This document shows positions 5,650-35,130 of a stretch of 37,712 nucleotides of DNA, one piece after another. The stretch comes from Spirochaetes bacterium ADurb.Bin218. Its GTDB lineage: Bacteria; Spirochaetota; UBA4802; UBA5550. The notes beneath the pieces are model-generated. The model saw only the letters and a list, made by a program, of their open reading frames with translations, was not told where the DNA came from and ran no database searches. A program made the translations under genes and the position numbers. The first letter of the stretch is position 1. Every line of letters begins with the position of its first letter. The stretch is taken from NCBI GenBank assembly GCA_002069965.1, contig MWCI01000029.1:1-37712 (forward strand), given 5' to 3'.

Positions 5650-6567
5650 CTAATACATATTTTTAAGATTTTCTTTTATTGAATAGAGAATATTTAGATA
5701 GGAGATATATCTCTCCTCATGAATTTTCCCTTTATCCACAAGGCGTTTTACCTCACAGCCAGGCTCATGTTCGTGGGAACAGGGCCTAAACTTGCATTTT
5801 AGAGAGGCTTTTTTAAAGTCCATAAAGTAATTGCCCAATGTATATGGATCTACATCAACAAGACCAAATTCCCTCACACCAGGGGTATCTATGATCTCTG
5901 TCCCATCAGGTAGCCTCACCAGATGAACATTTGTAGTGGTATGCCTCCCCTTGCCTGTGCTTTCTGAGACCTCAGAGGTTCTTAAATCCAATGCTGGATA
6001 TAATTTATTAAGAAGAGATGATTTACCAACTCCAGAATAGCCAACAAGTAGATTTCTTTTTTTTGAAATAAGCTCTTTCAGGTTACTAAGTCCATCACCT
6101 GTTAAAGCAGAGACAAAGAAAACATCAACACCTGAGCCTTTATAGTATTCCTTAACATATTCAAAATCATCATCTGAGGCCATATCTGATTTATTAACCA
6201 CAAGTGCTACAGGGACTCCACCCTTGCCTGCTCTGACAACGATTCGATCTGAGAAACGCAAATTGAGCTTTGGAATTCCAAAAGATTGCACAACTATAAT
6301 CTTATCCAGATTACAAGCTATTAAGTCCTCCCGAGAGCGCACCCCATCCTTACGGGTAAAGACATTTTCCCGTGGATGAACATTTTTTATTAGACCATGG
6401 CCATTGCTATCAACCTCAAAATCAACAATATCACCAACAGCAACGGGATTAGAATAGTTATCTTCAGAGAGAATTTTAAGCTTACCTCTCAAAACACAGT
6501 CAACTATCCCTTCGTCATAAAAAACAGTATAAAATTTACCAAAAACCCTTATTACATGACCTGTCAT
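5650..6567 (-). CDS. rsgA: Ribosome small-subunit biogenesis GTPase RsgA
   Basis: 305 residues, normal for RsgA, the circularly permuted GTPase that checks late 30S subunit maturation. An N-terminal OB-fold comes first, then the permuted G motifs in order: NKSDM (G4) near residue 125, GYSGVGKSSLLNKL (G1) near 177, the TTTNVHL (G2) region, and DTPGV (G3) near 227. The C-terminal zinc site is visible as CKFRPCSHEHEPGC. It is the first gene of a three-gene minus-strand operon with the ABC ATPase and the PfkB kinase. Confidence 0.95.
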   Translation of the reverse strand: MTGHVIRVFGKFYTVFYDEGIVDCVLRGKLKILSEDNYSNPVAVGDIVDFEVDSNGHGLIKNVHPRENVFTRKDGVRSREDLIACNLDKIIVVQSFGIPKLNLRFSDRIVVRAGKGGVPVALVVNKSDMASDDDFEYVKEYYKGSGVDVFFVSALTGDGLSNLKELISKKRNLLVGYSGVGKSSLLNKLYPALDLRTSEVSESTGKGRHTTTNVHLVRLPDGTEIIDTPGVREFGLVDVDPYTLGNYFMDFKKASLKCKFRPCSHEHEPGCEVKRLVDKGKIHEERYISYLNILYSIKENLKNMY

Positions 6568-6622
6568 TTTATCATCTGTTAAAAATTTTTTAAAAAATAA
6601 AATTTAAGCTAAAGTTAAGACT

Positions 6623-6628
6623 ATTATA
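6623..6628 (-). promoter_or_regulatory. Probable -10 box for the rsgA operon
   Basis: On the minus strand the bases read TATAAT, about 56 bases upstream of the rsgA ATG. The best -35-like hexamer (TTGTAG) is only 14 bases away, so the promoter is plausible but not canonical. Confidence 0.4.
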
Positions 6629-6646
6629 TACCGATATAAGTCCTAC

Positions 6647-6750
6647 AAGCATTGATATGATAGTTCCCTCCCGTTCTTATCATATCACTGTCTTGACACT
6701 GCAAAATGAAGAAGGCAGGATAGCCGCCCAGCTATTCTGCTTTCTTTTTT
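6647..6750 (+). ncRNA. Putative small RNA: C-rich hairpin followed by an intrinsic terminator
   Basis: A hairpin with perfect 9-bp arms (GATATGATA 6654-6662, TATCATATC 6678-6686) displays a 15-nt loop containing TCCCTCCC. That loop could pair with Shine-Dalgarno sequences, as C-rich loops of known bacterial small RNAs do. About 28 bases later comes a strong plus-strand terminator (6715-6750). No gene on the plus strand precedes that terminator, and both neighbours run on the minus strand. A TATAAG hexamer at 6635-6640 could be the -10 box, with no clear -35. The 5' end is a guess. Confidence 0.45.
6715..6750 (+). terminator. Intrinsic terminator on the plus strand with no upstream gene
   Basis: GCAGGATAGC pairs with GCTATTCTGC as ten base pairs including one G-U, with loop CGCCCA, followed by TTTCTTTTTT. 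On the minus strand the same stem has an A-C mismatch and a weaker T-tail (CTTCTTCATTTT), so the plus strand is the better reading. It may also serve the minus-strand gene that ends at 6749. Confidence 0.7.
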
Positions 6751-7129
6751 ACTCTGGCAGCTTTTCTGCAAAAAAAGGAACAAAACTCTTCAACTGGCCA
6801 ATTATTAAACCAGAGGGCGTAAGACCACTTACTCTAAAAGTAACAACATAAAACATTCCTTCGTGAATATTTTTCATATATGGCCCAAGGAGAGCTTTTC
6901 TTTCCTTGCCAGATATATCAAATTCCACATCTATATTGGAAGAATCGTAAAATACAATCTTCTCAAAAGTCAAATCCACATTTTTTAATCTCATTGTAAG
7001 AGTTATTTCTTTATTGAGATACTGTTCTATATCCACAGCAATTGTGCTAAGATTTTTAACCTCCTGAGAATAAATAAAAGAACTCACAGTGATAATTAAA
7101 CAAAAAAAGATCCAACCAAGAGATTTCAT
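6749..7129 (-). CDS. Small exported protein of unknown function
   Basis: 126 residues, with an N-terminal signal peptide: a lysine at position 2, a hydrophobic stretch to about residue 19 and a likely cut near SFIYSQ. The mature part is about 105 residues, rich in beta-type alternation (ITLTMRLKNVDLTFEKIVFYDSS; MFYVVTFRVSGLTPSGLIIGQL). This resembles small OB-fold-like periplasmic proteins, but I cannot assign a family. There is no lipobox and no cysteine after the signal. A hairpin lies directly after the stop codon. It is separated from rsgA by about 180 bases. Confidence 0.65.
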   Translation of the reverse strand: MKSLGWIFFCLIITVSSFIYSQEVKNLSTIAVDIEQYLNKEITLTMRLKNVDLTFEKIVFYDSSNIDVEFDISGKERKALLGPYMKNIHEGMFYVVTFRVSGLTPSGLIIGQLKSFVPFFAEKLPE

Positions 7130-7259: not shown

Positions 7260-7382
7260 CTACTTCTTTTCATCGTGAAAAATATCCTCAATGCCTCTGC
7301 CCTTATTGAGTTTTTCGCTAATAATTTCTATTACAAACCAGAAAATAAGGACAACCCAAAACATATATACAATTTCGCTCAT
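7260..7382 (-). CDS. 40-residue single-pass membrane protein
   Basis: An ATG at 7382 is preceded, at 6 bases, by a consensus AAAGGAGG (7389-7396), one of the strongest ribosome sites in the window. The product is a short N-terminus, one hydrophobic helix of about 18 residues (IVYMFWVVLIFWFVIEII) and a charged tail ending HDEKK. The frame extends upstream to 7448, but the ribosome site decides this start. No family is recognised. An overlapping plus-strand frame (7176-7436) lacks such a signal. Confidence 0.6.
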   Translation of the reverse strand: MSEIVYMFWVVLIFWFVIEIISEKLNKGRGIEDIFHDEKK

Positions 7383-32329: not shown

Positions 32330-34954
32330 ATGAAGTTTAATCTTAAAAAAAAAGTTGAAGCGATAAATGTATTTTTCCAAAAAAATAAGCAATCTGGTTT
32401 AATTATTGGATTTATTGCCTTCTTATTTCTTCTCCCTCTTAGCTTTACAGATTTCTATGAGACCTTTGAGCTAAAGTTATACGATCTCAGATTTTCGCTC
32501 AAACCTTCAATATCTGAATGGGATAAACTCTATTTTGTAGATATTGATGAAAATAGCATAAGCAGCCTTGGTCAATTTCCATGGACAAGGGATATTTATG
32601 CTGAGGGTCTTTCTACTTTAAAAAACGTAGAGATTTCTCAAATTGCCTTTGATATAATGTTTCCAGAAAACTCCCCATCTCAGGTTGATACATCCACATT
32701 GCAGCTTCTAAAAGAAAAAATTGCAAGGAGAAAACTACCCTCCACTGAAGAGCTGGAATCTGTAATAAAAAATAACGACGATCTCTTTGCAAAAGCTATA
32801 AAAAACCATGGCAGGGTAATTCTATCCTACACCTTCACAGGAGAGCCCTTAACTGTTGATGCCATTGAAAGACAAAAAACAAAAAAATTCATAGAAGCAG
32901 CAAAGCGATTCACTGAATTATCTTCAATTCCAGTTCCTCAAGGTAAAGAAAAGCAATTTGAATCTCTCCAAAGCAATGATGCAACAGCAATAGTTTATCC
33001 TATTCCTGAGTTGATGAATGCTGCAAAATCCTTTGGTTTTGTAAACAGATTCACTGATATAGATGGCACTGTCCGAAGGGTTAAACTCCTGCAGGTATAT
33101 AATGGAAGAATTTACTTTAACCTTTCATTGATGATGTTAATTGATGCCTGCAATGTTACACTCAATGACATAGAAGTAAATCCAGGAAAGAATATCATAC
33201 TTAAAAATGCCTTTAATCCAATGACTCAAACAAAAAAAGATATTGTTATACCAATTGACAAAGGAGGAATGATCTATGTTAACTGGGCTGGCCCTGGGCC
33301 AAGGGAAAAATCCTTTCACCTCTTCCCTTTTATGGGACTTCTTGAGTATCCTAAGTTTGCCTCTTCGGTCCACGATTTTTTTGATTCAGCTCTTGGAATT
33401 GAAGGTATTACAAAGAGGATGGAGATTGAACAGCAACTTGCTTTTCTTAAAGAAAAATACCTCTCTGCCAAAAATGATGAAGAAAGAAAAAATATATCGA
33501 AAGAGCTTATATCAAAAAACTCTCAGCTACGAAATGAATATCTGAAAGCTCTCGAATTGCTTAAAGAGGAAAAGAAAAAGCTGGAAGAAAAGGCAAAATC
33601 TGACCCCAATAACCTCCAAAAGGAAATCGAAAGTATTGATAATGACATAAAGGCTGTGGAGCTTGTATTAAATACTGAATCCCTTAAAGATAAAATTGGA
33701 ATAATTGGACTCACTGCAACAGGAACTCACGATATTGCATCAATCCCTCTTCATAACGAATATCCTGGTGTTGGAACATATCACAATACAATAAACACAA
33801 TCATAAATAACGAATACATCAAAAGAGTGTCCACAGCTTTTTCAATCTTTATGATTTTTATCATAGCCCTTATCTCCGGGTTTATAATTCAAAAGCTTGA
33901 CTCTCGAAAATCTCTCACTGTGGCTACTTCTGGCTTTATTTTGCTTAATATTATCTGCTTTTATTTATTTTCATTTCACAATGTATGGATTGAACAACTA
34001 GGGCTGAATCTTGCTTTTATTGTCCCTGCAACTTTCATTATATCAATAAAACTCATAAACGAAGAAAGCCAAAAAAGATTCATAAAAGGTGCCTTCTCCA
34101 GATACCTGGCTCCTGATGTTATTGAACAGATAGTTGCTCATCCAGAGACTCTGGAGCTTGGTGGAGAAGAGCGAATAATTACAATTTTCTTTTCTGATGT
34201 AGCGGGATTTTCAACCATTTCAGAAAAGCTCACGCCTCCAGAGCTTGTGTCTTTGCTAAATGAATATCTATCAGAAATGACAGACATTATAATTTCCCAT
34301 GGAGGAACTGTTGATAAATATGAGGGAGATGCGATCATGGCTTTTTACGGTGCACCTCAACCCTATGTCGACCATGAATTACGAGCTTGCCTTGCTGCAA
34401 TTGACATGAAAAGAAGACTGAGAGAATTACAGGAACACTGGAAAGCTATGGGGCAATATGCACTTTCTGCGCGAATGGGTATGAATACAGGAAAAGCAGT
34501 TGTAGGCAACATGGGTTCCAGACTCAGAATGGACTACACAGCAATGGGAGATTCTGTTAACCTTGCCTCAAGGCTTGAAGGGGCAAATAAGTTTTATGGA
34601 ACATCAGCAATGATAAGTGAAAACACATACAGAGGAGCAAAAGATCATATTGAAGCACGAAAGCTTGATATAATAAAAGTTGTAGGCAAGTCTGAGCCTG
34701 TTGCAATTTATGAACTGCTCGGTAAAAAAGGAACTTTGCCTCAATATGTGTATGACTGCCTTGAACATTACAATAAAGGACTTGAATTCTTTCAAGAGCG
34801 CCAATGGAAAAAGGCACACAGTGCCTTTACTGAAGCACTGAAAATTTTACCTGATGATGGTCCATCAAAAACATATATTGCAAGATGTGAAGAATTTATG
34901 AAAAAACCACCTTCCAAGAAATGGGATGGAGTTTATACATTAACATCTAAATAA
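32330..34954 (+). CDS. CHASE2 adenylate cyclase
   Basis: 874 residues with GAGGGAAG before the ATG. TM1 (~24-40) leads into a CHASE2 extracellular sensor (~42-495). The CHASE2 domain is interrupted by a ~90-residue coiled coil (~365-450) before its last block (IGIIGLTATGTHDI). Three membrane helices follow (~502-520, 531-548, 558-574). The cyclase domain (~615-800) has metal aspartates D623 (FFSDVAGFST) and D667 (KYEGDAIMAFYG), the adenine-specifying K663 and NLASR. A TPR-like tail (~815-865) ends WDGVYTLTSK. It probably makes cAMP in response to a periplasmic signal, with the FecR protein and barrel of its operon as partners. Its last eight codons and stop lie inside the first tandem repeat unit. 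Confidence 0.93.
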   Translation: MKFNLKKKVEAINVFFQKNKQSGLIIGFIAFLFLLPLSFTDFYETFELKLYDLRFSLKPSISEWDKLYFVDIDENSISSLGQFPWTRDIYAEGLSTLKNVEISQIAFDIMFPENSPSQVDTSTLQLLKEKIARRKLPSTEELESVIKNNDDLFAKAIKNHGRVILSYTFTGEPLTVDAIERQKTKKFIEAAKRFTELSSIPVPQGKEKQFESLQSNDATAIVYPIPELMNAAKSFGFVNRFTDIDGTVRRVKLLQVYNGRIYFNLSLMMLIDACNVTLNDIEVNPGKNIILKNAFNPMTQTKKDIVIPIDKGGMIYVNWAGPGPREKSFHLFPFMGLLEYPKFASSVHDFFDSALGIEGITKRMEIEQQLAFLKEKYLSAKNDEERKNISKELISKNSQLRNEYLKALELLKEEKKKLEEKAKSDPNNLQKEIESIDNDIKAVELVLNTESLKDKIGIIGLTATGTHDIASIPLHNEYPGVGTYHNTINTIINNEYIKRVSTAFSIFMIFIIALISGFIIQKLDSRKSLTVATSGFILLNIICFYLFSFHNVWIEQLGLNLAFIVPATFIISIKLINEESQKRFIKGAFSRYLAPDVIEQIVAHPETLELGGEERIITIFFSDVAGFSTISEKLTPPELVSLLNEYLSEMTDIIISHGGTVDKYEGDAIMAFYGAPQPYVDHELRACLAAIDMKRRLRELQEHWKAMGQYALSARMGMNTGKAVVGNMGSRLRMDYTAMGDSVNLASRLEGANKFYGTSAMISENTYRGAKDHIEARKLDIIKVVGKSEPVAIYELLGKKGTLPQYVYDCLEHYNKGLEFFQERQWKKAHSAFTEALKILPDDGPSKTYIARCEEFMKKPPSKKWDGVYTLTSK

Positions 34955-35130
34955 ACTTTTTTTGTTCATATACAGATAACTCTGTATATGGGTAGTGAGT
35001 TTATACATTAACATCTAAACAAACTTTTTTGTTCATATACAGATAACTCTGTATATAGGTAGTGAGTTTATACATTAACATCTAAACAAACTTTTTTGTT
35101 CATATACAGATAACTCTGTATATAGGTAGT
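34931..35130. repeat. Three tandem ~67-bp repeats starting inside the cyclase stop region
   Basis: Units begin at 34931 (68 bp), 34999 (67 bp) and 35066 (65 bp, incomplete end). Each contains GTTTATACATTAACATCTAA, then AACAAA...TTTGTT as a short hairpin and CATATACAG - ATAACT - CTGTATAT as a second, near-perfect 9-bp hairpin. Unit 1 includes the coding end (VYTLTSK, stop). The copies differ at only a few bases, so the expansion looks recent. Units are not in-frame multiples of three, and the stop codon comes first. Confidence 0.9.

Follow-up and report, generated by a model that had tools for sequence, protein, structure and literature searches.

A Conserved Small RNA with a C-Rich Loop and a Putative FliA-Type Promoter in an Order of Free-Living Spirochetes

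Introduction

Small RNAs driven by sigma28 (FliA) have so far been described in enterobacteria and Campylobacter (PMC10578931, PMC4626219). The E. coli representatives are UhpU, MotR, FliX, and FlgO (PMC10578931), and those of Campylobacter are the sigma28-dependent noncoding RNAs CjNC1 (CJnc10) and CjNC4 (CJnc170, FlmR) (PMC4626219, PMC11187230). Another kind of system that is relevant here is represented by staphylococcal RNAs with UCCC-type seeds, which bind to G-rich Shine–Dalgarno (SD) sites (PMC9217828). In the spirochetes, the flagella are periplasmic and run along the cell (PMC11607428); Treponema denticola has a mapped sigma28 promoter at flaB2, with the −10 element CCGATAA (PMC9481697), and Borrelia is without sigma28 (PMC11607428).

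Here, we describe an intergenic locus in the window, that is, the whole stretch of 37,712 nt analysed from the assembly of Spirochaetes bacterium ADurb.Bin218 (contig MWCI01000029.1). It has a sigma28-type promoter, a hairpin with a C-rich loop, and a terminator of its own.

Layout and Fold of the Locus

The locus occupies positions 6640–6751 of the plus strand, where the covariance model described below gives a match of 109 bits, and the predicted RNA is about 105 nt long (Table 1). A previous sequence-only reading had placed two hairpins here, a 9-bp hairpin upstream and a ten-bp terminator stem with a U-tract, and had noticed that no plus-strand gene precedes the latter. Both hairpins are found where it had put them, the T-tract is present, and the neighbouring rsgA and exported-protein genes do indeed both lie on the minus strand; the stems, however, are longer than had been thought. 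That of hairpin 1 has 10 bp, in which TGATATGATA (6653–6662) pairs with TATCATATCA (6678–6687) below a 15-nt loop containing TTCCCTCCCG, while that of the terminator (6708–6747) has 17 pairs, including G-U, with the loop CGCCCA at 6725–6730 and the T-tract next to it. The plus-strand RNA folds with −39.6 kcal/mol against −18.2 ± 3.1 for shuffled sequences (z = −6.9), and none of the 200 shuffles was as stable, whereas the minus-strand fold is weaker (z = −3.1). A repeat element can be ruled out, since hairpin 1 is found only once in the genome.

Table 1. Positions of the predicted small RNA, its parts, its putative promoter, and the flanking genes in the window.
Feature	Position	Strand	Remarks
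−35-like element TAAAG, sigma28-type promoter	6610–6614	+	T(A/C)AAG aligned in relatives (about 39 of 40 distinct ones)
−10-like element CCGATA	6631–6636	+	16 nt past TAAAG
Small RNA	6643–6749	+	5' end inferred about 7 nt past the −10 element; 3' end within the T-tract
Hairpin 1	6653–6687	+	10-bp stem in this genome; fold, covariation
C-rich loop GTTCCCTCCCGTTCT	6663–6677	+	proposed seed complementary to G-rich SD sites
Outer helix below hairpin 1	6646–6695	+	CAAG (6646–6649) with CTTG (6692–6695)
Near-invariant unpaired segment	6696–6702	+	ACACTGC here, GGCACTGC in most relatives
Terminator hairpin and T-tract	6708–6749	+	stem and loop mostly near-invariant in sequence
rsgA	5650–6567	−	divergent from the small RNA; Pfam RsgA_GTPase, 169 bits
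Exported-protein gene	6749–7129	−	converges on the small RNA; in relatives, its orthologue is the neighbour in synteny

The exported protein matched no Pfam family. Its gene runs towards the RNA, with about 2–20 nt between their ends, which means that both transcripts may end at the hairpin; probably, the exported-protein gene is indeed served by this terminator as well. Upstream of this gene, the minus strand has, at 7260–7382, a reading frame with an ATG and a good ribosome site for what is likely a membrane peptide of 40 aa (MSEIVYMFWVVLIFWFVIEIISEKL...), and a peptide resembling it is encoded at the equivalent place in L054.

Conservation and Distribution

In BLAST searches of relatives with the region 6568–6760 as the query, identity was 90% and 87% in two congeneric species and 72–89% elsewhere in the family, while in other families of the order only a shorter core was conserved. 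In the sister species, 90% identity is maintained across 123 nt, while RsgA and the exported protein are only 73% and 47% identical, respectively. RsgA identity is 72–73% within the genus and 47–64% beyond it, and that of the exported protein is 31–50% among relatives.

A scan for the terminator pattern in one genome per species (84,980 species) yielded 32 stretches, 30 of which were from Spirochaetes MAGs; the two others, from Bacillaceae, have an unrelated context and were attributed to chance. A covariance model (R1), built on 34 sequences, found the RNA in 41 of the 46 genomes from the order (Spirochaetota) to which the window belongs, and the five genomes without a match are 66–76% complete. 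Among 347 other Spirochaetota genomes, there was no credible match to R1; the single weak one (in G059, E 8.8e-4) was discarded on inspection, as its terminator and flanks differ. A plasmid collection gave no match either. The homology in related genomes by which the sequence-only reading had proposed to check the region therefore extends across a bacterial order. This reading had also made the small RNA depend on conservation of the loop, the CCCTCC core of which is invariant across the 34 aligned sequences and is unpaired in the consensus structure. Alignment columns C58, C60, T61, and G62, which belong to the CACTG segment, are invariant too; this segment as a whole is near-invariant, as is the bulk of the terminator stem, the terminator being even better conserved than the loop. 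The first alignment was partly collected via the terminator pattern, which by construction inflates the invariance of the terminator there, but BLAST and the model also recover copies that deviate from this pattern, and in these the core is still near-constant. One genome of the order (G030) has two near-identical copies of the RNA around 31 kb apart, L086 and L088 (G030:C77:4153-4270 and 34923-35040); only one promoter of the two is intact, the −10 element of L086 having decayed.

At gathering thresholds, Rfam 15 gave no family in the window, and at relaxed thresholds the best sub-threshold matches were far under the cut-off. A weak covariance match of the whole RNA to tfoR (RF02100) reaches 16.8 bits, far under the gathering score of 70, and is treated as chance. 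In the open-licence literature, no sigma28-dependent RNA was found for this order, though one may be described elsewhere. With neither an Rfam family nor a description in open-licence papers, the small RNA appears to be previously uncatalogued.

Covariation and Strand

Covariation was counted on 43 distinct sequences in an alignment fitted to the model, which leans towards structure: 95.3% of the helix cells are paired, 16 of the 26 pairs change on both sides, and double-change cells number 117 against 33.7 in shuffles (a value reached by none of 500 shuffles). When the partner is slid by 1–3 columns, pairing falls to 39–53%. A MAFFT alignment, which is fitted to no structure, has double changes in 13 of the 26 pairs. 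Both-side changes affect all six of the modelled pairs of hairpin 1 and three of the four pairs of the outer helix (in which 86.9% of the cells are paired), while 7 of the 16 terminator pairs never vary. Wobble pairs reveal the strand: G-U far exceeds A-C (112 versus 10), which assigns the RNA to the plus strand. Judging from these alignments, we regard it as almost certain that the locus is a conserved, structured RNA gene on this strand.

The Promoter and Its Sigma Factor

The promoter at 6610–6636, which is absent from the sequence-only reading, is as conserved as the RNA itself. Of 40 distinct copies, about 39 proved, in a best-match search that permitted several spacings and mismatches, to have both T(A/C)AAG and a CCGA-type element, with a spacing of 16 in 34 copies and of 15 in 6; the −10 element is 28–29 nt from the loop in 33 of 40. 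One copy, L009, had been aligned at a poor site, and a TCAAG-N16-CCGAAG-like site is present at the usual place. The strict pattern occurs only once in the window, at the RNA site, with 0.23 occurrences expected by chance. For comparison, the consensus for sigma28 in E. coli is TAAAGTTT-n11-GCCGATAA, i.e., TAAAG-N15-CCGATAA (PMC2859248), and the spacer of the RNA promoter is one base longer.

The genome encodes one FliA (TIGR02479, 294 bits, above the curated cut-off), along with two additional sigma-70-family proteins that score well below it, and has six flagellin matches; flagellins are present in all 57 genomes sampled. A stricter TAAAG-type scan of the upstream regions of the order's best-scoring flagellins produced no convincing match. 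The −35 element was relaxed to TNAA after this failure, so the test was not fully pre-specified, and TNAA-N17-CCGA (equal to the TAAAG-N16 spacing) was then found in 18 of 65 flagellin upstreams of the order, as against 0–8 for eighteen other spacings. Most of these 18 sites lie 99–107 nt ahead of one flagellin gene class, and the pattern is absent from most of the flagellin upstreams sampled. In a 400-kb sample of this genome, TNAA-N17-CCGA was not enriched upstream of genes generally, which makes the regulon look small. We consider it highly probable that the RNA is driven by FliA.

Two observations were made in passing. TNAA-N26-CCGA occurs in 8 of the 65 flagellin upstreams, above the other off-spacings. 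In one flagellin class (L112, L210-L213, L215, L219, L220, L225, L226, L231, and L233), the SD lies within a small hairpin, GATTCA(T/G/A)GGAGGAATC, which looks to be of the CsrA type, with a sigma28-like promoter about 100 nt upstream.

The Loop and Its Candidate Targets

The CCCTCC core resembles the UCCC-type seeds of the staphylococcal RNAs and is both conserved and unpaired, as is characteristic of sRNAs that pair with SD sequences. In this genome, the complementary GGGAGGG is found 3–10 nt ahead of ATG 16 times, versus 8 times for a reversed-pattern control. Plausible genes with this site are ftsZ, a flagellin, a PBP2-like transpeptidase, rtcB, and two short unknowns. Among the candidates bearing GGGAGGG, one of 61 aa was considered as FlgM, for which Pfam gives no support.

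Of 369 sampled genes, a set into which the GGGAGGG regions had purposely been put, ftsZ had the best pairing with the loop. Across the order, 18 ftsZ start regions have a median loop pairing of −13.7 kcal/mol, compared with −7.4 where other genes have good SDs; for ftsZ, pairing with the loop is also preferred to pairing with the 16S anti-SD (delta −2.4 versus +1.1, p = 5e-5). This comparison is between orthologues related by descent, with starts called mechanically and all from within the order, and ftsZ was chosen post hoc, after its GGGAGGG had been seen in this genome. For these reasons, ftsZ is a lead rather than a result, and that it is a true target seems possible but somewhat doubtful. 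Its sites differ between genomes (GGGAGGG, GGGGGA, AGGGGGGG), such that G-richness is kept but exact 7-nt complementarity is not. As an observation in its own right, the ftsZ SD is unusually G-rich in this order (start regions L246-L275). Flagellin mRNAs were rejected as conserved GGGAGGG targets: one flagellin here has GGGAGGG, while those of the order mostly have AAGGAGG, AAAGGAG, or CATGGAGG, and, opposite to ftsZ, the favoured partner of flagellins is the ribosomal anti-SD rather than the loop (+2.8).

It was the sequence-only reading that proposed a regulatory sRNA whose loop is complementary to SD sites, and this idea has gained support from the invariant loop core, the covariation, the strand of the wobble pairs, the promoter at a near-fixed distance, and the order-wide conservation. 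That the RNA acts through SD pairing is, on this evidence, a reasonable expectation.

Discussion

The locus specifies an RNA that is structured, noncoding, equipped with its own terminator, and conserved as RNA, which are the properties of trans-acting, base-pairing sRNAs. The model that best fits these properties, and which we think likely to be correct, is that of a FliA-dependent, intergenic, trans-acting sRNA with a C-rich loop that pairs with G-rich SD sites. A stand-alone intergenic RNA of about 105 nt would be made by FliA-bound RNA polymerase from the plus strand, would end at its own terminator, and would accumulate once the late flagellar genes are switched on; its exposed loop, UUCCCUCCCG, would pair with the G-rich SD of target mRNAs and block ribosome binding, leading to repression of these targets. 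From the sequences, we infer the drive by FliA, the action by base pairing, the repression, and the choice of mRNAs. The RNA probably ties the building of the flagellum to the control of other genes, possibly ftsZ; the latter is the best candidate target, through which the RNA may, among other things, couple cell division to the expression of flagellar genes. A bolder proposal would be that an order-wide, FliA-controlled sRNA represses the translation of ftsZ while its near-invariant terminator hairpin binds a putative RNA-binding protein, a combination that we consider speculative and improbable as a whole.

How do other explanations fare? The SD-pairing model gives no account of why the terminator should be better conserved than the loop. 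One answer would be that the sRNA mainly binds a protein, rather than mRNA, with the terminator hairpin or else GGCACUGC as the binding segment, and that the C-rich loop is part of the protein site. The sequence constancy of the terminator stem-loop does exceed the needs of pairing (as witnessed by the pairs that never vary), and the GGCACTGC segment is near-invariant and unpaired; however, a fully invariant CCCTCC loop is the typical seed of an SD-pairing RNA, and the GGA motif for CsrA is not constant in the loop, so we judge this explanation to be unlikely. A separate explanation, that the promoter belongs to a different sigma factor and that the RNA is outside the flagellar regulon, could appeal to the extra base in the spacer, to the absence of the element from most of the sampled flagellin upstreams, and to the two further sigma-70-family proteins, which score well below FliA. 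Against this, TAAAG and CCGATA fit the FliA consensus (PMC2859248), the mapped sigma28 promoter of T. denticola flaB2 has CCGATAA as its −10 element (PMC9481697), the identical spacing peaks at the flagellin genes of the order, and every sampled genome has flagellins, all of which makes another sigma factor quite unlikely.

The alternative offered by the sequence-only reading was a bidirectional terminator for the exported-protein gene, with the hairpin as an rsgA operator; taken as the whole explanation, it would mean that the locus holds nothing more than a two-way terminator separating two genes and an inverted repeat, upstream of it, to which a protein binds. The first part retains some substance, as the exported-protein gene converges on the hairpin and ends right at it, and may share it, and there is a modest T-richness on the minus side, even though the conserved T-tract is mostly a plus-side feature (66% T versus 39%). 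The operator is unsupported: hairpin 1 does lie between rsgA and its divergent neighbour, but its arms change in a compensatory manner while the loop is fixed, which is how an RNA behaves and the reverse of what an operator would show. Moreover, terminators need no conservation of sequence, yet stem and loop are mostly near-invariant across families, and the G-U pairs speak for a plus-strand RNA, on the strand where a promoter is conserved; as a complete explanation, therefore, the alternative is very improbable. There is, finally, an open reading frame on the plus strand (6657–6851), the ATG of which, at 6657, might start a short peptide, and an ATG is frequently located within the hairpin stem. 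Among relatives, however, the spacing from loop to terminator is distributed over the three phases (18/16/7), so the frame is not kept, the lengths of the reading frames span 1 to 48 codons, and the ATG is absent from 8 of 41; the chance that a peptide is encoded is close to nil.

The preferred reading, that of a FliA-dependent sRNA with an SD-pairing loop, would extend the sigma28-driven sRNAs to another phylum. The RNA would be a well-defined, deeply conserved sRNA family in free-living spirochetes that are known mostly from metagenome assemblies, and the RNA, its promoter, and its loop are recognisable across several families, which offers a clean starting point for the mapping of targets. 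If the link with ftsZ were true, it would constitute a direct route from the assembly of the flagellum to cell division, which would deserve attention in view of periplasmic flagella that run along the cell.

Comparison with Known Systems

One close likeness is to CjNC1 and CjNC4 of Campylobacter, which are intergenic, have a FliA-type promoter and their own terminator, and have been proposed to pair with the 5' regions of mRNAs. These are, however, two paralogues of less than 50 nt from a different phylum; the spirochete RNA has a covarying hairpin with its C-rich loop and a near-invariant terminator, is distributed order-wide, and matched no Rfam family. UhpU, MotR, FliX, and FlgO of E. coli are controlled by FliA and link flagella to other cell processes, in which they resemble the role proposed here; they are, though, derived from UTRs, bound by Hfq, and conserved in some Enterobacteriaceae, whereas the spirochete RNA stands alone between genes. 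With the staphylococcal RsaE and RNAIII (PMC9217828), the RNA shares an exposed C-rich seed directed towards G-rich SD sites, but it differs from both in sequence, promoter, and phylum, and it has no Rfam match to either.
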